A stretch of DNA of 53,236 nucleotides from Oscillospiraceae bacterium (GTDB lineage: Bacteria; Bacillota; Clostridia; Oscillospirales; Ruminococcaceae), in NCBI GenBank assembly GCA_014799395.1, contig JAAVID010000034.1, forward strand, positions 1 through 53,236, given 5' to 3'. The position numbers were made by a program, and so were the translations under genes. Positions 1-8,790 of this stretch are shown here, one piece after another. Each line of letters begins with the position of its first letter. Position 1 is the stretch's first letter. Under the pieces are notes generated by a model. That model saw only the letters and a program-made list of their open reading frames with translations. It ran no database searches and had not been told where the DNA came from.

Positions 1-53
1 AGCTTTGCCAGCTCCATCTCTCTTTCAGTCAGTCCGTGTGTTCTGTTTTTCAT
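1..53 (-). CDS. N-terminus of an unidentified protein (runs off the window)
   Basis: Only the first 17 residues are visible: Met-Lys-Asn-Arg-Thr-His-Gly followed by LTEREMELAK. The ATG at 53-51 has a good ribosome site (GGAGG, 8 bases upstream). The LTERE stretch resembles the opening of LuxR-type helix-turn-helix domains, but 17 residues cannot establish a family. It lies 130 bp downstream of the AgrC-like kinase on the same strand and may belong to that transcript. No other gene could be supported between 54 and 183. Confidence 0.5.
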   Translation of the reverse strand, partial: MKNRTHGLTEREMELAK

Positions 54-183
54 GCCTTTTTCCTCCATATCTTTTTATGGTTATTCTTGGCATTTACACG
101 GTTTGTTATTCAGACTCGCAGCTTACGAAAATCTATGCCTGCGTACTTTGTGGGCACAAATGAAAGAACTTCTGCAATGAATA

Positions 184-1488
184 TTACATTTTCAACGTGA
201 GCATAAGCTCAAAAACACCATTTTCACACTTGATTCTCATTTGACCGTTATATTTTTTAACAGTGCTATCAATGTTATACAAACCCATTCCATGCTGTTC
301 CTTTTCCGACTTTGTTGTTTGTGGAATATCGTAGAAATTATAAGGACACATGGTAGGATTTTTAATTGACATCACAAAATATCCTTGTTGTTCCCCGGCG
401 AATATTGATATCGCGCACGGCGAGGTGAATTCACTGCACGCCTCGACCGCATTGTCCAACGCGTTTGAAAGGATTACACACAGATCGACATTTTCAATTG
501 AGGACGGTATAATTCCCGAATACTCTATACGGCAGTTGTCGTTAAGTGCCGCGGATTTATCGGAAAGAATCGCGTCCGCGAGCTTGTTTCCCGTGTAGAA
601 TATCGTCTTGGAGGAACTGTATTTTACTTTTTGTAGCTTTTCTATGTATTCTTCCGCTTGGGAATATTCGTTCATTTGAATCAATGATAAAATGCTTTTG
701 AGATGATTGGTGTAATCATGTCGGAAACGGCTTATTTCGGCGTCCATTTTTTCAAGCTCTTCATAATGACTGATCTGTAATTCGACCTGTTTCTCCATCA
801 TCCGGGAGACAGCAGTGAAATGCTGTTTAGCTATGACGTTAAGAAACAATGATGTAACAATACTGATCAGAATAATCGTAAGTATTATAACGATCGCGAT
901 TAGGGTGCTTTCCTTTTTTAATATATTGTCAGTCGAATAACTTATTAAAGATGACAAGGCGCTTAAACATATGATTGCCAAAATAAGCATTGCAAAAATA
1001 TGACGCGGAATTGTTGCCAACGCAGCACCATTTCTTTGAGGACTGCTTTTCTTTCCTGCATATAAAAATATGATTAACACAGTTATTTGAATAAATATCT
1101 TTACAAACGGTAAAATATCATCAGAATTTTTTTGAAATATATTTGCTAATATGCATGATGTGTTTGCCACAACTAAGGATATTGAAAGGTCTAGAACAGC
1201 AATAAGATAAACAGCCTTAAGGTTAATTCGTCCATATAGAATACCTATTGCCAGAATAAATTTAAAATAATATAACAATATGGTAAAAAGATCTGTTGAA
1301 TTGCCAAAATTATTTAACAGAAAAAGTTCTATCACTGATATTCCTAAGTAAATTGTATAGGAAGCAATTATTCTGTTCTTCACATTCAAATTTTTGCATA
1401 ATATGCCAAGCAGATTGGTGCAGACAATAAGAGATATAAGCTCAATAGCACCATTTACAACAAAAAGAGTATTTTCTATTAAGCTCAT
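184..1488 (-). CDS. AgrC-like sensor histidine kinase (GHKL ATPase)
   Basis: Membrane sensor kinase of the quorum-sensing AgrC/ComD type. The first ~220 of 434 residues are a polytopic membrane domain of about six hydrophobic segments. A linker helix and the dimerisation motif FRHDYTNH follow, with the likely phosphorylated His at about residue 257. The C-terminal GHKL ATPase has an N-box (SNALDNAVEA) and a G-box (GMGLYNI). Its start overlaps the stop of the LytTR regulator by 4 bp (ATGA), so the two are translationally coupled and should form a kinase-regulator pair. No agrB or agrD gene is visible beside it, so the ligand is unknown; a peptide is the family precedent. Confidence 0.88.
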   Translation of the reverse strand: MSLIENTLFVVNGAIELISLIVCTNLLGILCKNLNVKNRIIASYTIYLGISVIELFLLNNFGNSTDLFTILLYYFKFILAIGILYGRINLKAVYLIAVLDLSISLVVANTSCILANIFQKNSDDILPFVKIFIQITVLIIFLYAGKKSSPQRNGAALATIPRHIFAMLILAIICLSALSSLISYSTDNILKKESTLIAIVIILTIILISIVTSLFLNVIAKQHFTAVSRMMEKQVELQISHYEELEKMDAEISRFRHDYTNHLKSILSLIQMNEYSQAEEYIEKLQKVKYSSSKTIFYTGNKLADAILSDKSAALNDNCRIEYSGIIPSSIENVDLCVILSNALDNAVEACSEFTSPCAISIFAGEQQGYFVMSIKNPTMCPYNFYDIPQTTKSEKEQHGMGLYNIDSTVKKYNGQMRIKCENGVFELMLTLKM

Positions 1489-2201
1489 ATCCGATGCTCC
1501 TCATTATATCTAATTATATAATCTTGAAATCCGGTTTTAAATTTGGTCGCATAATGCGCACCGATATTGGCTTTTTCTCCATTATCAAAAACAATCTCTG
1601 AATTATCATGATTGCTTATATGTTCATATCCTACAACAAATGATTTGCTACTCCTAGTGAACTTTGAGTCTGGAAGTCTTATTTCCAGCTGCTTTAAATT
1701 CAAATGAACACGAAGCGATTTGTTCTTTGTTCTGATTGTTGTATATTTTCCATCCCCCTCCAAATAAATAATTTCCGACATTTTTATTTTATAGTTACCG
1801 TCGTGAGTGTTTACAAAAAGTAAATTATCATAATCAGCTGATTTCATGTAGTCGTCCAATGCCTTAAAAAGCTTGGTATCGTCCACAGGCTTTTGAATAA
1901 ACCTAAATGTCCGAACCTCAAACGCATCAAGCGCCGCTGAGGGATAAGCACTGATAAAGATAATAATACTGTCGGAATTTGTTTCGCGCAGCTTTCTTGC
2001 GGTTTCAATACCGTCCATTTCCTCCATTTGATAGTCCATAAAAATAACATCATATTCTTGCTCGGATTGAAGCAGTGTATTGCCGTCTTCATAATGATCC
2101 ATAATTATTTCGATTTTTCTCTCCTTTTGAAATCTGTGCAAAAGGCTGATTATTTCTTTATGAAACACCTTTTCATCATCGCAGATTGCAACCTTTAACA
2201 T
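1485..2201 (-). CDS. LytTR-family response regulator (AgrA-like)
   Basis: 238-residue regulator. The N-terminal receiver begins MLKVAICDDE, with acidic residues at 8-9, phospho-acceptor Asp56 in IFMDYQ and the conserved Lys in FIQKP. The C-terminal LytTR DNA-binding domain contains IIYLEGDGKYTTIRT and ends near residue 238. The start was chosen at 2201 because GGTGGAGA sits just upstream; an in-frame ATG at 2240 has no such site. It is the first gene of a two-gene operon with the AgrC-like kinase and probably acts on the TTTTGT boxes at 2278 and 2929. Confidence 0.9.
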   Translation of the reverse strand: MLKVAICDDEKVFHKEIISLLHRFQKERKIEIIMDHYEDGNTLLQSEQEYDVIFMDYQMEEMDGIETARKLRETNSDSIIIFISAYPSAALDAFEVRTFRFIQKPVDDTKLFKALDDYMKSADYDNLLFVNTHDGNYKIKMSEIIYLEGDGKYTTIRTKNKSLRVHLNLKQLEIRLPDSKFTRSSKSFVVGYEHISNHDNSEIVFDNGEKANIGAHYATKFKTGFQDYIIRYNEEHRI

Positions 2202-2228
2202 ATCTCTCCACCTTTCTTTTTTACTTAT

Positions 2229-2257
2229 ATTATACATCAATATGCGTGCGTTTTCAA
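2229..2257 (-). promoter_or_regulatory. Promoter of the regulator-kinase operon
   Basis: Minus strand: TTGAAA (2257-2252), 17-base spacer, TATAAT (2234-2229), just upstream of the regulator start at 2201. It diverges from the promoter at 2315-2343; the box pair 2278-2306 lies between them and could serve both. Confidence 0.7.
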
Positions 2258-2277
2258 GTTTTTTTTAATAAATTATG

Positions 2278-2306
2278 TTTTGTTCCCTAAAAACTTCGCT
2301 TTGTTC
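2278..2306 (+). promoter_or_regulatory. Tandem boxes, candidate LytTR operator 1
   Basis: Two direct repeats with GTTC at 2282-2285 and 2303-2306 (TTTTGTTC and CTTTGTTC), exactly 21 bp apart, i.e. two helical turns, as is usual for LytTR/AgrA sites. The second box begins 16 bp before the -35 of the downstream promoter. The same arrangement recurs at 2929-2993. Confidence 0.6.
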
Positions 2307-2314
2307 AAAATCCA

Positions 2315-2343
2315 TTGTTTACATCTTCTAAAACCGATATAAT
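2315..2343 (+). promoter_or_regulatory. Promoter of the Trp-rich peptide operon
   Basis: TTGTTT (2315-2320), 17-base spacer, TATAAT (2338-2343). The -10 is perfect and the -35 is weak, fitting an activated promoter, with the repeat boxes placed immediately upstream. Confidence 0.7.
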
Positions 2344-2374
2344 ACGAACATAATCACAGTAAAGGAGGGATAAC

Positions 2375-2419
2375 ATGGAGGTTTGGACACGTTTTTGGAG
2401 ATGGTTCTTCAGTTGGTGA
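2375..2419 (+). CDS. 14-residue Trp-rich micropeptide
   Basis: A short reading frame encodes MEVWTRFWRWFFSW: five Trp and three Phe in 14 residues, with two Arg and one Glu. The ribosome site is close to perfect (AAAGGAGGGATAAC before the ATG) and a strong promoter lies 30 bp upstream. The stop TGA (2417-2419) is 4 bp before the ATG of the next gene, suggesting translational coupling. What the peptide does cannot be read from sequence. It could be a secreted signal or membrane-active peptide of phenol-soluble-modulin or leaderless-bacteriocin style. It could also be a leader peptide whose Trp codons gate expression of the downstream gene. It lacks the Cys/Ser and C-terminal acidic features of AgrD, so it is not an AgrD precursor. 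Confidence 0.55.
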   Translation: MEVWTRFWRWFFSW

Positions 2420-2423
2420 TAAA

Positions 2424-2882
2424 ATGAACGTGATTGAAAATCAGCAATTGTGGTTTGACAACGCTTTGTCGTATCGTACAAGGGTTGAAAAAAATTCACT
2501 TGGCGATATGATTAGGCACATTTATGACAATATTTCCGTTCTCGGTTTGGAGATTACAGACAGCGTCGTGGTATCGGTTTTTGAGGAAACAAAAGAGCCG
2601 AAGCAAACGATACTCGGGATCGAGATAATCGTTCCCGTGAACAAGTCATTCGAGAGCAATTGTCATTATGTTTTCAAGCCGCACTTCAAACTGGAGAACG
2701 CGGTATTGTGTAAATACTGCGGCAAAGCAAGCGATTTTCCGGACGCAAGTAAGAGACTGAGTGAATACGCCTTAGATAAGGGGTATTCACCTCTTACAAA
2801 CGTTTATTTCTCAATTAAGCAGATACACGGCGATGAAGTAGTTGCTAACGCTTATTTGGGAATCGACGGGAATTTGTTGTAA
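2424..2882 (+). CDS. GyrI-like / effector-binding-domain protein, function unknown
   Basis: 152 residues with no signal peptide or membrane segment. Two halves of similar alpha/beta character can be seen: a first around EIIVPVNKSF, and a second around AVLCKYCGKASDFPDASKRL and ending ANAYLGIDG. This pattern resembles GyrI-like or SOUL-type small-molecule-binding domains of Firmicutes, a tentative match made by eye. Its own ribosome site is weak (GGTGA, 4 bases before the ATG, inside the end of the micropeptide), so it is probably translated by reinitiation after the micropeptide. A terminator follows at 2889. Confidence 0.7.
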   Translation: MNVIENQQLWFDNALSYRTRVEKNSLGDMIRHIYDNISVLGLEITDSVVVSVFEETKEPKQTILGIEIIVPVNKSFESNCHYVFKPHFKLENAVLCKYCGKASDFPDASKRLSEYALDKGYSPLTNVYFSIKQIHGDEVVANAYLGIDGNLL

Positions 2883-2888
2883 TTATTT

Positions 2889-2917
2889 AAGCCGAAGCAA
2901 TTTCGGCTTTCTTTTTT
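2889..2917 (+). terminator. Terminator of the micropeptide operon
   Basis: Stem AAGCCGAA / TTCGGCTT (2889-2896 and 2902-2909) with a short loop, followed by a T-rich run. It separates this operon from the next promoter. Confidence 0.8.
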
Positions 2918-2928
2918 GTCAAAATACA

Positions 2929-2957
2929 TTTTGTTCCCGAAATACTGTATTTTGTCC
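2929..2957 (+). promoter_or_regulatory. Tandem boxes, candidate LytTR operator 2
   Basis: TTTTGTTCCC at 2929 and TTTTGTCC at 2950, again 21 bp apart. The first box matches the one at 2278 over TTTTGTTCCC. The second box starts 16 bp before the -35, identical to operator 1. Confidence 0.6.
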
Positions 2958-2965
2958 GAAATATG

Positions 2966-2993
2966 TTGATTTTTAATTTTTTTGCTGTAAAAT
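2966..2993 (+). promoter_or_regulatory. Promoter of the orphan LytTR regulator
   Basis: TTGATT (2966-2971), 16-base spacer, TAAAAT (2988-2993). It leaves a leader of about 170 bases before the regulator start; nothing convincing was found in that leader. Confidence 0.5.
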
Positions 2994-3167
2994 ATATAAA
3001 AATACTTTGTAGATATAATGAGCAATATTAACTTTAATTCCGCTTTATCTCGGCATAATATACATATATATTTTTAGTTTTTCATACAGCGGCGTCATAT
3101 TAGCAACATTGACAGCTTTTTTGAAATCCCGAACGGCGGATAGATAAACGGAAAGGTGCTGACAGCA

Positions 3168-3872
3168 GTGGTGAAGTTCGCAGTGTGCGAAGATGAACAG
3201 GAAATGGCGGATTATATTTCGGACAAGCTGCGTGAATACTATCCCGAAGAATGTGAGATTAAAAAGTACGGGGACGGCGAAAGCCTGCTTAATGTTAGGC
3301 GACGGGAATTTTTTGACGCTTTATTTTTGGATATTGGATTACCGGGGATGAGCGGAATTGAGCTTGCCAAGAAGATACGCAAGGATGATCCGTATGTGAA
3401 AATCATTTTTGTAACGAAGCGGGAAGAGCTTGCTCACATGGGATACCTGTTTAACGTTTTCAGATTTGTTAGGAAAAGCAATCTGAATCAGGAGTTGTGC
3501 GAAACAGCTGATAGCCTAAAGGAGTATTTTGATTCTTTGGACAAATATATGAGCTTTAATACTCCGACGGGAAAGATCACAAGAGCTGTAAAAGATATTA
3601 AATATTTTGAAGTAAAAGGGCACGCTATTACTATGGTAAGTGTTGAATACGAAGATCAGGTATGCGGTACAATGAAAATGTACTGTGACATAATGAAAAA
3701 CAAAGGTTTCATACAAATACATAAGAGTTACCTTGTAAATTTCAGATACATTTATTCTGTCGAAAAGGATGACGTAAGGTTACCATGCGGCAAAGTGCTG
3801 CCGCTGAGCCGCAATAGAGTTGACGAGGTAAAGAATAAACTTCAGGATTTTCTTATACATATCGGAAGATGA
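3168..3872 (+). CDS. Orphan LytTR-family response regulator
   Basis: About 234 residues. The receiver begins VKFAVCEDEQ, with phospho-acceptor Asp near residue 55 in LFLDIGLPG and the Lys switch residue in RFVRKSN. The LytTR domain follows (IKYFEVKGHAITMV, IQIHKSYLVNF). The start is uncertain: AAAGGTG at 3152-3158 is the ribosome site, which favours GTG at 3168 (9-base spacing) or 3171 over the GTG at 3156 that lies inside it. No kinase gene adjoins it. Operator 2 suggests control by itself or by the AgrA-like regulator at 1485-2201, or that both answer to the same kinase. Confidence 0.85.
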   Translation: MVKFAVCEDEQEMADYISDKLREYYPEECEIKKYGDGESLLNVRRREFFDALFLDIGLPGMSGIELAKKIRKDDPYVKIIFVTKREELAHMGYLFNVFRFVRKSNLNQELCETADSLKEYFDSLDKYMSFNTPTGKITRAVKDIKYFEVKGHAITMVSVEYEDQVCGTMKMYCDIMKNKGFIQIHKSYLVNFRYIYSVEKDDVRLPCGKVLPLSRNRVDEVKNKLQDFLIHIGR

Positions 3873-3923
3873 TTGCAAGTATGTCAAATATTTATTGCAT
3901 TAACCTCATAGGCGAACAGATCG

Positions 3924-4088
3924 TTAGTATTGAAATAGATGTCTTGAATACCAAAAACGAGGGGTTGATATCCCGCCGAGGTTCGGAAGATAATATATCT
4001 TATCGGTGAGGAACATCATAAGCTCGCACACGACCGCCGCCGCTATTCCCGACGTGAGCGCGTATTGCAGACATTCTATCGCGGTCAT
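3924..4088 (-). CDS. Possible small membrane protein or gene fragment
   Basis: 54 codons starting MTAIECLQYALTSG, with a hydrophobic stretch and an upstream AAAAGGGA 9 bases before the ATG. Codon choice in the first 35 codons (many third-position G/C) resembles neighbouring genes; the last 20 residues do not look conserved. It may be the truncated N-terminus of a small phage-type or holin-like membrane protein. The rest of 3873-4226 holds only the terminator at 4185. Confidence 0.3.
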   Translation of the reverse strand: MTAIECLQYALTSGIAAAVVCELMMFLTDKIYYLPNLGGISTPRFWYSRHLFQY

Positions 4089-4184
4089 TTTGTACAGTCC
4101 CTTTTCGGTCATTCCAATAAGTCGTCTGCGAGTGTTTCTCGCCAGTCCGGGAAATGCGAGTAAAAATACTTTTTATACAAAATG

Positions 4185-4215
4185 AGAGCATAAACCCTGT
4201 CGGGCTTATGCTCTC
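4185..4215 (-). terminator. Terminator of the 4227-4817 gene
   Basis: Ten-base stem GAGAGCATAA / TTATGCTCTC with an inner GCCC/GGGT pairing, followed on the minus strand by ATTTTGT. It lies 12 bp past the stop of the upstream minus-strand gene. Confidence 0.65.
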
Positions 4216-4226
4216 GGAAATTATTA

Positions 4227-4817
4227 TCAGCTCAAATCAAAGGTGGTATATCCGAACCTCTGGATCAGCCTTTGCAGTTTATGAAAATTCGCTATATTGT
4301 CCTTTTTCGATTTTAAGTCGAACAATATCCTGTCGTGAGCGTAAACGCTGTATATCTCGATATACGGCGGGTCGGCGGTAATATCGCGGTCGCCTATGCA
4401 CTTGTACGCGCTCCCCGGGTGCTTCCGCCCGAAATTCACCATACATTCGCGATAGGACACAACGTGACCGTTTTTAAACTTTATCCCGTCCCTGTCGACG
4501 CATTTGATGTCCTCAAAGCTGATCTCCCTTATCTCGGTGTGGAAATAATGGTGTTTGGATTTAAAATATTCGGTAGCCTCGTCAACGTGCTCAAGGAAAT
4601 ACTCCGCACGCTCCCCGGTTATCTCGTGCGACCACGGATAATTGTTCCCCATACCCGACGCGCTGTACGCATACGCCTCAAAGCTGTACTTTATCCGCGC
4701 ACCGTCGTCATTCGGAAGCGTCCATTTAACGATAAGATAATCATTTTCCTCAAGCAGTATCTCAGCTCTGTCCGTACTTTGGACCTGGAGCTTTACAAGC
4801 GCTGTCTCATCGGTCAT
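4227..4817 (-). CDS. Hypothetical protein, 196 residues
   Basis: No recognised family. The protein appears soluble, lacks a signal peptide or membrane helix, and is rich in His, Tyr and charged residues (KSKHHYFHTEIREISFED, YSVYAHDRILFDLKSKKDN). A GAGGAAA ribosome site precedes the ATG. Codon use matches neighbouring core genes. It stands alone: a terminator follows, and a 50-bp gap separates it from the sigma factor upstream on the same strand. The N-terminal third (beta-strand-rich, LLEENDYLIVKWTL) and the later VVSYRECMVNF segment suggest an alpha/beta or beta-sandwich fold; this is inference. Confidence 0.7.
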   Translation of the reverse strand: MTDETALVKLQVQSTDRAEILLEENDYLIVKWTLPNDDGARIKYSFEAYAYSASGMGNNYPWSHEITGERAEYFLEHVDEATEYFKSKHHYFHTEIREISFEDIKCVDRDGIKFKNGHVVSYRECMVNFGRKHPGSAYKCIGDRDITADPPYIEIYSVYAHDRILFDLKSKKDNIANFHKLQRLIQRFGYTTFDLS

Positions 4818-4867
4818 ACTGTTTCCTCGCTTAATACGATTATGTAAAGCATTTCCCGATAACCTGC

Positions 4868-5929
4868 TTAATCGAGAAATACCCTCAGCGCCTTGCTCTT
4901 GCTCTGCGAGCGGAGCTTTCTAAGCGCCTTTGCTTCTATCTGACGAATTCTTTCGCGCGTTACTTTAAACTGTCTGCCGACCTCCTCAAGCGTATGAGCG
5001 CGGTCGTAGCCAACGCCGTAGCGGAACTTCAAAACCTCGCGCTCGCGTTCGGGCAGCGTGTTCAGAGCCTTGTTCAGTTCGTCCTTGAACACCGCCTGCA
5101 TTGCCGTGTCGATAGGCGCGGGCGCGTCCTCATCGGGGATAAAATCGCCGAGATAGCTGTCCTCCTCCTCGCCCACGGGAGCCTCCAGCGATACGGGGTC
5201 CTGCGCGATACGGATTATCTCGCGAACTCTGTCCGACGGCATATTCAGCTCCTGAGCGACCTCGTCGATAGTCGGCTCGTGACCGTTCTCGTGCAGGAGC
5301 TTGTTCTGCGCCTTTTTTACGCGCGATATAGTCTCGACCATATGCACGGGGATACGGATAGTACGCGCCTGATCCGCGATAGCGCGGGTTATCGACTGTC
5401 TTATCCACCAAGTCGCGTAGGTCGAGAACTTAAAGCCCTTGGTGTAATCGAACTTCTCAACCGCCTTGATAAGTCCGCTGTAACCCTCCTGTATCAGGTC
5501 GAGCAGCGGCATACCGCGTCCGACGTAATGCTTCGCGATACTCACGACAAGCCGCATATTCGCGGTGATGAGCCTGTCGCGCGCCTCGGCGTCGCCGCTT
5601 ACGATACGCTCCGCAAGCTCGCTCTCCTCCTCGGCGGTCAGAAGCGGTATTTTGCCTATCTCGCGCAGGTGAATCTTAACGGGATCGTCCATACCCGTGC
5701 CGCTTTTTTCGTTAGCCGCCTCGCCAAGCTCCAGCGCCTTGTTGAGGTCGTCCTCAACGCTGAAATCGTCGTCGACCTTGATATTATTCTGATCGAGGAA
5801 TTCGCTGAGCTTGTCAAGGTCAACGTCCGCCTCGTCTATCACGTTGTATATCTCTTTAGTGGAGAGCGTTCCGCTCTGCCTGCCTCTTTCCAGAAGCTCG
5901 TTAAAAATATTCTTCTCGGTATTGTTCAT
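4868..5929 (-). CDS. Second sigma-70 (RpoD-like) factor, divergent paralogue
   Basis: 353-residue sigma factor with the full group 1/2 layout: a region 1.1-like N-terminus, region 1.2 ([11 protein letters not shown]), a region 2 almost identical to the neighbouring rpoD ([33 protein letters not shown]), region 3, and region 4.2 ([20 protein letters not shown]). It differs from canonical RpoD at the end of region 4. The conserved HPxRSxxLKDFLE tail is replaced by [13 protein letters not shown], and region 4.1 reads [16 protein letters not shown]. It starts 30 bp after the rpoD stop with its own AAAGGAT site, so it is probably cotranscribed with dnaG-rpoD. The intact region 2.3-2.4 implies a normal -10; the altered region 4 could change -35 or activator contacts. 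Confidence 0.9.
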
Positions 5930-5959
5930 TTAATGATCCTTTCAGCCGCTATGTATATA

Positions 5960-7045
5960 TTATTCCAAAAAATCCTTTAACTTTCTGCTTCTGGTAGGAT
6001 GACGGAGTTTTCTCAAGGCCTTTGTCTCTATCTGACGAATTCTCTCCCGTGTTACCTGAAATTCCTGTCCGACCTCCTCAAGAGTGCGCTGCCTGCCGTC
6101 GATAAGCCCGAAACGCAGTATAATAACGCGCTTTTCACGCTCCGTAAGGGTGTCGAGGACCTCGCCGAGCATCTGCTTTAACATCGAGTTGCACGCCTCG
6201 TCCGCGGGCGCGGGAGCGTCGTCGTCGGGGATAAAGTCGCCGAGATGGCTGTCCTCCTCCTCGCCGATAGGCGTTTCAAGCGAAACGGGGTCCTGCGCGA
6301 TACGGATTATCTCGCGCACCTTATCGACGCTCATATTGAGGTACTCCGCTATCTCGTCCTCGGAGGGCTCGCAGCCGTTTTCGTGCAGAAGCTGGCTCTG
6401 CGCTTTCTTTACCTTGGTAATGGTCTCCACCATATGCACGGGTATTCGGATAGTCCTCGCCTGGTCGGCGATAGCGCGGGTTATCGATTGTCTTATCCAC
6501 CACGTCGCGTAGGTCGAGAATTTGAAGCCCTTGGTGTAATCAAACTTCTCAACCGCCTTGATCAGTCCCATATTGCCCTCCTGGATAAGGTCGAGGAACT
6601 GCATACCGCGGCGGACATACTTCTTGGCAATGCTCACCACAAGTCGGAGATTAGCCTCGATAAGGCGCTTTTTCGCGTAAGCGTCGCCCGTTTCCATACG
6701 CGCGGCGAGCTCTATCTCCTCCTCGGTGGACAGCAGAGGTATCCTGCCTATATCCTTTAAAAAGCTCTTTACCGAATCGTCGGGCAGCATAATATCCGCG
6801 TCGGGATTATCCGAATAATCGCGGTCGGAATAATCAAGAATGCTGTCAATATCAAGATCCGCGTCAAAGTTATCGACTATCTTGATATTCATACTGACGA
6901 TCTTATCAAAAATATGATTGATCTGATCCGCGTCAAAGTTAAGCTCCTCCAGCGCGTCGGTTATCTCCTTCGCGGTGAGGCTTCCTTTCTGCTTGCCCTG
7001 ATTAAACAACTCCTCCAGAGCGTTGGATCCGCTGTTCTCACTCAT
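5960..7045 (-). CDS. rpoD: Primary sigma factor RpoD (SigA)
   Basis: 361 residues. Region 1.1-like N-terminus, region 1.2 ([14 protein letters not shown]), region 2 ([34 protein letters not shown]), region 3 ([19 protein letters not shown]) and region 4.2 with the canonical tail [13 protein letters not shown]. It recognises the TTGACA/TATAAT promoters seen throughout the window. Its ATG overlaps the dnaG stop by one base (TAATG), giving the classical dnaG-rpoD operon. This copy keeps the consensus tail, so it is taken as the housekeeping factor rather than the one at 4868-5929. Confidence 0.95.
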
Positions 7046-8790
7046 TATTCTTTCTTCTCCTTTAACATCTCTACCAGCTTCAGCAGCTCCTCATCGGACA
7101 TTTCTCCGTACTGTCTGTCCTTCGGGGTCTTGCCGTGATCGTTTAAAACGTCTATAAAATCCGCCAGCGCCGTTTTGTCGTTGGCGAAAGTGTTGTCGGT
7201 CACTATCTGCATTATTCTGCCCATTTCTCTCGCGTCAAATTCCTCGTTGAACAAAGAAATATCGGGCTGAGCTCCCTCGGCGAGCATTTTTGCGAGAAAT
7301 TCATAAACGCGCTTGTTAAAAGCCGTAGCGAACTCGCCCTCAAGCGCCGCGGAAATTTTTCCCAAAGCCTCGGGATTATGGTACAGATAGCATATTATCC
7401 CGCGCTCCGCCTTTTCCTCTTTCGGCATTTTCAGCGCGTCGGGATTTATCCTGTCGGGCGCGGGGTGAAGCGCGGCGTTCTGCTGTTGGCGCTTCGCTTT
7501 GCCTTTGTTGCGCGCTATCTCGCCGTCGACCGCCGACCTTATCGTATCGGCGGGAATAGAGGATTCTCTCGCCGCGCGGCTTATGTACACCGCCCTGTCG
7601 ATGTCGTTGCTTATCTGCGCTAAAAACGTTACCGCTTTTTTGAGATAAGCCGATCTGCCGTCGTCGGTGTTCAGATCGAGACCCGTGGCGAGCTTGTCCA
7701 TTTCATAAGCGATAGCGCTTCCAGACTTATCGATAAGCGACCTGAAAGTCTCCGCGCCGAACTTCTTTATGAATTCATCGGGGTCTTTTGCGCCGTCCAT
7801 TTTAAGAACTCTCGCGCGCACTCCCGCCTCCGAAAGCAGATTGATACCGCGCGAGGCGGCGGCTTGTCCCGCGCCGTCGCTGTCGTAGGAGAGAATGACC
7901 TCCTTTTTGCCCAGCCGCGAGATCATATTCGCCTGCTGCGCCGTAAGCGACGTTCCCAGCGACGCGACCGCGCTGTCAAATCCCGCCTGGTGCAGGGAGA
8001 TAACGTCCATATATCCCTCGCAGAGTATAAAATAGTCTGCCTTGGAATTCTTCGATTTATCCAGCGCGAACAGCATATCGCTCTTGTGGAACACCATAGT
8101 TTCCGCGCTGTTGAGGTATTTCGGGATATTCTTGTCCTCCGAGAGCGTTCGTCCGCCGAACGCCGCGACATTTCCGCGCGTATCGAATATCGGGAACATA
8201 ACGCGGTTTCGGAACTTATCGTATATTTTATTGTTATTCGTCGCCAGAAGCGAGCCGTCGGAAAGCTCATACTCGGAATAACCCAGATCTTTCATATAAA
8301 AATGAAGATCGTGATAATCATCGACGGCGTACCCCAATCCGAAACGCTTTATCGTGTGGTCGGACAGACCGCGCCTGCGGAGGTAGTCCAGTCCCGCAGC
8401 TCCGGCAGGGGAGAAGAGCTGTTTGTGGAAATATTTTCCCGCCTCGCGGTTCATTTCGTAAAGCCGCTGACGCTTTTTCGACGAGCCGTCGTCCTTATCC
8501 TCGGGCATCGGCATACCCGCCCTCTGCGCGAGAAAACGCACCGCGTCCATATAGTCGAGGTTCTCTATCATTCGTATGAACGTCACAACGTCGCCGCCCA
8601 CCCCGCAGCCGAAGCAGTGGAACAGTCCCTTGTCGGGCGAAATATGACAGGACGGGGATTTCTCCGAATGAAACGGACATCGGCACATATACGAGCTGCC
8701 CGAGCGCTTGAGCTCAACATACCCCTGAGCCACCGACACTATATCGTTCCTGTCGTGAAGCTCGCGCATAAAATCCTCGGAAAGTCGCAC
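7045..8790 (-). CDS. dnaG: DNA primase
   Basis: 581 residues; makes RNA primers at the replication fork. The N-terminal zinc-binding CHC2 domain has ligands at about Cys38, His41, Cys59 and Cys62. The catalytic core follows ([19 protein letters not shown]), then the TOPRIM domain with CEGYMDV and the metal-binding SYDSDGAG. The C-terminal helicase-binding part is short, as in many Firmicutes. The start is GTG at 8790, with AGAGGT five bases upstream. It lies between dgt and rpoD. Confidence 0.96.

Follow-up and report, generated by a model that had tools for sequence, protein, structure and literature searches.

The question raised by this locus is what a gene of only 14 codons does beside a membrane-bound sensor kinase. 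The window, by which we mean the whole stretch analysed (53,236 nucleotides; contig JAAVID010000034.1 of assembly GCA_014799395.1, a member of the Oscillospiraceae), contains a short frame, MEVWTRFWRWFFSW, that lies divergent from the genes of a LytTR response regulator and an AgrC-like histidine kinase. Behind it, starting at position 2424, is a gene for a protein distantly related to the DUF5085 family. The frame is a real gene, conserved among relatives of this gut bacterium. Judged by gene order and comparative sequence, its product is probably a leaderless peptide pheromone that would be sensed by the neighbouring AgrC-like kinase in an autoinduction loop.

The frame stands out from its background. 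AAAGGAGGGATAAC precedes its start codon. A profile built from only 12 relatives, with the window peptide excluded from training, ranked it first among the 256 frames of 12–20 residues in the 53-kb window, at 8.0 bits compared with 0.4 bits for the runner-up. When the window peptide was included in the profile and a Shine-Dalgarno (SD) filter was applied, it was the sole match in the window, and none was found in ten Markov shuffles; a chance frame was rejected on the leave-out ranking together with these shuffles. Four pairs of related copies showed 10.3 synonymous and 12.7 other changes, where 17% synonymous changes are expected (binomial P = 0.002, under a model that leaves out transition bias and with the identical pair L005a/b contributing nothing). 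An earlier note on this DNA, made from the letters alone, had placed the gene at exactly the coordinates that the profile ranking, the relatives and the synonymous excess now support. It had counted five Trp codons, of which there are four among the 14. It had also described the frame as overlapping no longer gene; a mechanically called 64-residue open reading frame on the minus strand (2305–2499) does overlap it, and nothing was found that supports that reading frame.

Relatives of 7–16 residues were found at 27 loci in 27 genomes, the window included (the remainder being G030, G028, G001, G032, G004, G021, G018, G014, G020, G786, G603, G172, G351, G575, G468, G184, G195, the record behind L017, G029, G637, G566, G705, G640, G645, G698 and G736). 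They share a pattern, being short, rich in Phe and Trp, and preceded by a ribosome site. Examples are MGFWDCIWYWIFG, MDFIERILYWIFGGK, MYFWEAIWSMIFGSQK, MSFWDYLLYIIYGGR and MWRYIWQIIFG; MNIWDLIWDFIFGF occurs as a tandem pair of identical copies and MSWLGYLWYWILGK is present in two copies. The number of Trp residues ranges from 0 to 4, with MNCFYDIFLFFFG having none, and several peptides are neutral or acidic. Searches with the 2424 protein and then with its profile matched in 10 of 61, 6 of 394, 20 of 396 and 11 of 43 genomes, in overlapping sets. Thirteen loci with 2424 homologues come from metagenome-assembled genomes titled uncultured Clostridia, Oscillospiraceae or Ruminiclostridium. There were 34 distinct homologues, of which 32 were examined after two fragments lacking a start (L042, L043) were dropped. 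The earlier note had proposed looking for WRWF-type short frames in front of these homologues. An SD-preceded short aromatic frame lies just upstream in 19 of the 20 with 2424-profile scores above 135 bits, one of which (L031) is ended at 8 residues by an in-frame TAA, and directly upstream in none of the 12 that score below 125 bits. The short-frame filters demanded an SD-like match and, for the 2424-homologue and family counts, at least 8 residues; the 7-residue peptide of G705, below that filter, was picked out by eye, and a 24-residue candidate without an SD (L146) was left uncounted. Scanning 43 genomes of the genus with a peptide pattern gave nine matches, namely six known peptides, two longer frames (29 and 75 residues) that were discarded, and one new peptide, MDFWEMFFRYILGL, in G029. 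A regulator and kinase of the same kind lie divergent from it; after it comes a terminator-like hairpin (by eye), and the locus has no DUF5085 gene. The regulator was therefore used as the next query.

What accompanies the peptide most constantly is the divergently encoded LytTR regulator together with the AgrC-like kinase. The genus contains 15 regulator orthologues, at E 2.4e-80 or better (next best match 7.8e-48), and where the divergent region was assembled the peptide is present in 10 of 12 loci. No peptide-type frame was seen at the 12 weaker LytTR regulator matches in the genus, three of which are cut by contig ends. The family sample gave 21 regulator matches in 20 of 392 genomes, 16 of them with the peptide (G000 and G001 are counted in both this set and the genus set). 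Seven of these 16 loci have no DUF5085 gene directly behind the peptide (MDCWYYFFYLIYGE, MQDWFDFWGWFL, MFGWWDW, MLDFIINFFR, MWDWIFGIFG, MGDFLDWLFGGRK and MSKLVEWLNSLWY), and at two of the seven a DUF5085 gene is found elsewhere beside the kinase/regulator pair. The DUF5085 gene is an optional partner. HATPase_c_5, SPOB_a, LytTR and Response_reg exceed their Pfam cut-offs in the kinase/regulator pair, and hydropathy indicates about seven separate hydrophobic segments within kinase residues 8–218; the staphylococcal AgrC model matches the window kinase at only E 2.8e-6 and 26.8 bits, the cut-off being 500. The association with an AgrC/AgrA-like pair had been proposed before and is borne out by these counts. 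The kinase is divergent from the micropeptide, as proposed, with the qualification that the regulator is the immediate divergent neighbour and the kinase lies behind it.

The divergence of the peptide tracks the membrane sensor domain of the kinase and not its catalytic domain, the regulator or the DUF5085 protein. In partial Mantel tests at 25 loci, peptide distances were correlated with those of the sensor domain once kinase and regulator were controlled for (r = 0.35, p 0.001–0.002), and not with those of the kinase part (r = -0.19, p 0.97) or the regulator (r = 0.07, p 0.25–0.27). When the six remotest loci were removed (n = 19), the value for the sensor was 0.37 (p 0.001). The set comprised 25 of the 27 loci, G030 and L017 being left out because their kinase sequence was not in hand; for G014 and G786, where the peptide is on one contig and the kinase on another, the two were treated as one locus. 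Four relatives compared with the window show 28–47% identity in the sensor, 60–79% in the kinase, 58–70% in the regulator and 48–81% in the DUF5085 protein, and their peptides share 3–4 of 12–13 positions. Such a pherotype-like pattern would be expected of a ligand and its receptor.

The promoter points to the same partner. A LytTR-type box pair precedes the micropeptide, in agreement with the candidate boxes reported earlier. A genome scan allowing up to three mismatches, with a pattern drawn from the two box pairs of the locus themselves, returned only two matches, one before the micropeptide and one before the second LytTR regulator; looser sites would be missed because the pattern was drawn from the two sites found. 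The box pair beats the 95% point of shuffles in 16 of 28 promoters, a lenient figure since the motif was trained on the same 28. The distance from the second box to the -10 is 24–37 nucleotides in these 16, and exactly 28 nucleotides in 10 of the 28, the window included. Given the terminator-like hairpin after the 2424 gene and the gap of 4 nucleotides between the micropeptide stop and the start of that gene, the two are probably one transcript. Upstream of the second regulator stand a TAAAAT and a box pair resembling the one at the micropeptide promoter, so this regulator may add a second tier to the loop. A weaker-scoring regulator is also found near the locus in G030, G028, G032, G018, G014 and G786.

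If the peptide is a pheromone, the LytTR regulator would bind the box pair and switch on the micropeptide operon. Once translated, the 14-residue product would act without the help of an AgrB-type cyclase or any other gene dedicated to maturation. Its target would be the kinase's membrane sensor domain, which it would probably approach from outside, altering kinase activity, as the steady pairing and the sensor-only tracking suggest. The phosphorylated regulator would boost expression of the peptide, closing the autoinduction loop, and of a small regulon; gene order and boxes suggest that this regulon may comprise, in the window, the DUF5085 gene and the second regulator and, in one relative, cell-wall-acting genes that follow further peptide copies. 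In the weakest step of the scheme, the DUF5085 protein would buffer or chaperone the peptide in the cytosol, a suggestion based on its predicted fold, members of which bind greasy aromatic compounds and, in the case of ExiB, hold a hydrophobic helix. AgrB (PF04647) has no match in this genome (G000, 97.75% complete), and no maturation gene recurs at the 21 stretches that were clustered. A modified RiPP (ribosomally synthesised and post-translationally modified peptide) was considered and rejected: the kinase, regulator and DUF5085 clusters occur in 16–19 of the 21 stretches, and the next clusters in only 6, 5 and 4.

Several observations weigh against a pheromone. No dedicated exporter is present at the locus, an ABC (ATP-binding cassette) ATPase family being found in 5 of the 21 stretches, several genes away. 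AgrB is present in 5 of 10 searched genomes, always on contigs other than that of this locus. Five of the 21 family regulator matches have no recognisable peptide, and it is missing at 2 of the 12 assembled genus loci, in G015 and G033. G015 has neither recognisable boxes nor the peptide; G033 (L169 6000–6760) keeps the box pair and a -10-like site, lacks the peptide and DUF5085, and has a different gene behind the promoter, apparently for a membrane protein (by eye). Twelve of the 28 promoters fall below the 95% point of shuffles, that of L058 plainly at chance. In G575 (L064 9672–9713) the peptide stops at 8 residues (MGFWHKLY) with an IIWG-like end readable past the TAA; a recent nonsense mutation may account for this, or else the shortened form still works. 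The sample behind the Mantel test is small, and the partial form of the test tends to be liberal. At the 17 loci with DUF5085, the value was 0.00 (p 0.52) for DUF5085 and 0.38 for the sensor, and the failure of peptide divergence to track DUF5085 counts against a specific DUF5085–peptide pair. A promiscuous DUF5085 binder would leave no trace of co-divergence.

The 2424 protein is predicted to have a GyrI-like, duplicated SHS2 fold. DUF5085 (PF16895) matches the window protein at 15.1 bits, the gathering cut-off being 30, and 6 of 10 homologues match at E<=1, the best at 3.7e-6. NCBIfam has no name for the protein, and a sequence search of solved structures (query A1) gave no matches. The AlphaFold2 model has a mean pLDDT (predicted local distance difference test score) of 92.9. 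Foldseek searches with this predicted model returned a CTR107-type rhodamine binder (E 1.5e-7), followed by EcmrR, STM3175, BmrR, CtaZ and SbmC; several of the matches bind rhodamine, multidrug ligands or natural products. Two reports (PMC10434224, PMC12744356) describe how the DUF5085 proteins TipE and ExiB bind glycine-zipper membrane toxins and neutralise them, ExiB by means of a hydrophobic groove. By analogy, a peptide-holding role of the 2424 protein is plausible. The peptide and DUF5085 as the primary unit is a weakened proposal, as the peptide is found without DUF5085 and DUF5085 does not track it.

The micropeptide could instead act inside its own cell, as an unsecreted, LytTR-controlled and membrane-associated feedback regulator that damps or tunes the kinase sensor in the way that MgrB does for PhoQ. 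This appears unlikely, if worth keeping in mind: kinase pairing, the LytTR-type promoter and the tracking of the sensor domain fit it equally, and the locus has no dedicated exporter. MgrB is likewise a short hydrophobic product of its kinase's own regulon and may act on the sensor; it has 47 residues in the available description, whereas the present peptides have 7–16 and diverge quickly. Their sequence and length change far faster than the kinase, a behaviour that is pherotype-like rather than that of a fixed inhibitor, and with 7 residues, as in MFGWWDW (L161), a peptide is hardly long enough to cross a membrane. Moreover, the three boxed copies in G645 that precede other genes fit amplification better than damping.

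A reading of the micropeptide as a membrane-active toxin or bacteriocin, with DUF5085 as its cytosolic immunity protein after the example of TipE and ExiB with glycine-zipper toxins, is improbable. The peptide does precede 19 of the 20 close DUF5085 homologues, the 2424 protein has a predicted GyrI-like fold, and the available text of the TipE and ExiA/ExiB reports describes neutralisation of membrane toxins and a groove that holds a hydrophobic helix (PMC10434224, PMC12744356). The likeness to TipE and ExiA/ExiB extends to a distant sequence match and a gene beside a hydrophobic peptide; the partner here, however, would be a free peptide of 7–16 residues and not the glycine zipper of a toxin. 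No LXG or type VII secretion system toxin gene was recognised beside the 2424 gene (genes in 1–7000 by eye, four by Pfam). Peptides of 7–16 residues, several of them neutral or acidic, are short for pore formers, the peptide is found without DUF5085 behind it, and DUF5085 divergence does not track that of the peptide.

That the short frame is a mere leader, coupling translation of DUF5085 and yielding an inert product, is very improbable: the 4-nucleotide gap in the window would suit it, but the amino-acid pattern is kept with an excess of synonymous changes, the peptide exists without a DUF5085 gene behind it, and the three G645 copies lie roughly 90–190 nucleotides ahead of the next gene. 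The suggestion that the frame serves the 2424 gene as a Trp-responsive leader with an attenuator, made earlier on the strength of the Trp codons (four in 14), can practically be dismissed because Trp counts of 0–4 in relatives (none in L017, which stands before a 2424 homologue) and a gap too short for a terminator between the genes speak against it, as do the absence of Rfam matches at gathering scores in window 1–6000, a 2424 protein that shows no tie to Trp metabolism, and a G029 peptide followed by its hairpin with no 2424-type gene.

The pheromone reading has a near precedent. The nearest described class is that of the leaderless communication peptides (LCPs) with Rgg-type receptors, such as SIP and RopB of S. 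pyogenes, which are mostly 8–10 residues long and are sensed by cytosolic Rgg/RopB proteins (PMC10518010). As far as the available text of that paper describes them, LCPs resemble the present peptides in being very short, hydrophobic or aromatic and leaderless, with their own ribosome site, preferably divergent from the receptor gene and differing between relatives; in S. salivarius they are associated with an antimicrobial cluster (PMC10518010). In contrast, the partner here is a membrane histidine kinase with a LytTR regulator, and the peptides, at 7–16 residues, are mostly longer than typical LCPs. An LCP is secreted and induces its receptor's regulon, as the micropeptide would do in the proposed loop. 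No Rgg-like gene is found among the nearest genes of the window (four by Pfam, the rest by eye), and the terms two-component and histidine kinase do not occur in the main text of the LCP paper (PMC10518010).

The Agr system (AgrBDCA) shares the AgrC-like GHKL kinase, the LytTR regulator and the box pair before the peptide operon. Signal and sensor of Agr also diverge fast together, as at the present locus. The locus differs from Agr in its divergent gene order, its DUF5085 gene and the lack of an AgrB match in this genome. The AgrD precursor comprises a cyclised segment and a C-terminal recognition tail. A peptide of 14 residues with no Cys and no C-terminal tail, in a genome with no AgrB match, is not AgrD, and the earlier view that it resembles no AgrD is upheld.

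The system would thus work like an LCP or Agr loop, yet it fails a defining feature of each. We see about an even chance that it represents a new class of quorum sensing, in which leaderless aromatic peptides of 7–16 residues without dedicated maturation would be sensed by AgrC-like kinases, with pherotype-like co-diversification of the sensor, multiplication before cell-wall-acting genes in one genome, and frequent pairing with a DUF5085/GyrI-fold holder. No description of a leaderless micropeptide paired with an AgrC-like kinase and LytTR regulator was found among the top literature matches, which is weak evidence as only open-licence papers were covered. The prevailing view is that a peptide signal detected by a histidine kinase requires a leader, a processing exporter or cyclisation. 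If the reading is true, an unprocessed peptide of 7–16 residues and its kinase would join leaderless signals, which are described for cytosolic Rgg-type receptors (PMC10518010), with kinase sensing. Such micropeptides would escape ordinary gene callers, and they would offer a way into the communication of gut Clostridia, which are known mostly from metagenomes. A role for the DUF5085/GyrI fold outside immunity to type VII secretion system toxins is also possible.

Features of the micropeptide locus, with positions in the window
Feature	Position	Strand	Basis
GHKL histidine kinase, AgrC-like, hydrophobic multi-pass N-terminus; behind the regulator	184..1488	-	Pfam, hydropathy
LytTR response regulator, directly divergent from the micropeptide	1485..2201 (about 2201; mechanical open reading frame start 2240)	-	Pfam, orthologue search
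LytTR-type box pair TTGTTCCCT-12-TTGTTCAAA, direct repeat, 21-nucleotide period	2280..2309	+	motif scan
-10 TATAAT, 28 nucleotides past second box	2338..2343	+	sequence reading
Ribosome-binding site AAAGGAGGGA	2361..2370	+	sequence reading
Micropeptide gene MEVWTRFWRWFFSW, 14 residues	2375..2419 (ATG 2375, TGA 2419)	+	sequence reading, profile, relatives
Distant DUF5085 protein, 152 residues, predicted GyrI-like fold; probably cotranscribed with the micropeptide	2424..2882	+	Pfam, AlphaFold2, Foldseek
Terminator-like stem-loop, then T run	2889..2909	+	1 found; shuffles average 0.7
Second LytTR-type box pair (2931-2960) and -10-like TAAAAT (2988-2993), 27 nucleotides after the boxes	2931..2993	+	motif scan
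Second LytTR response regulator, no kinase beside it	3156..3872	+	Pfam

The genes downstream of the peptide in relatives suggest functions in competition or at the cell surface, with putative control by the peptide. G645 (L163 3088, 8471, 9858; L180) has three peptide copies, MWDWIFGIFG, MWDWLFGIFG and the GTG-start WDWIFGIFGA, each preceded by boxes and each at the noted distance before a gene for a signal-sequence protein (signal by eye). By Pfam, the first of these proteins has a ricin-type lectin domain and NlpC/P60 just below its cut-off, the second Amidase_5 and NlpC/P60, and the third PG_binding_1 and a sub-threshold amidase. A C39-peptidase ABC exporter (Pfam) is encoded further along, and the region may be an antagonism island. 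An HlyD-like gene and a GG-leader-like peptide were seen by eye near that exporter. In G001 and G020 (L053 1–9405, L059 10344–19528) two large secreted proteins of fn3/PKD and CBM2/TSP3 types, which differ at their C-termini, are encoded behind the locus, and these are possibly polymorphic toxins on a mobile element. The same contigs also bear a TraG/VirD4-like gene (by eye). G443 has a CBM2/TSP3 protein behind DUF5085, with the two-component pair present and the peptide absent. In the window itself, two tandem genes for primary-type (RpoD-like) sigma factors, named by eye, lie at 4868–5929 and 5960–7045, directly after a likely dnaG (7045–8790).
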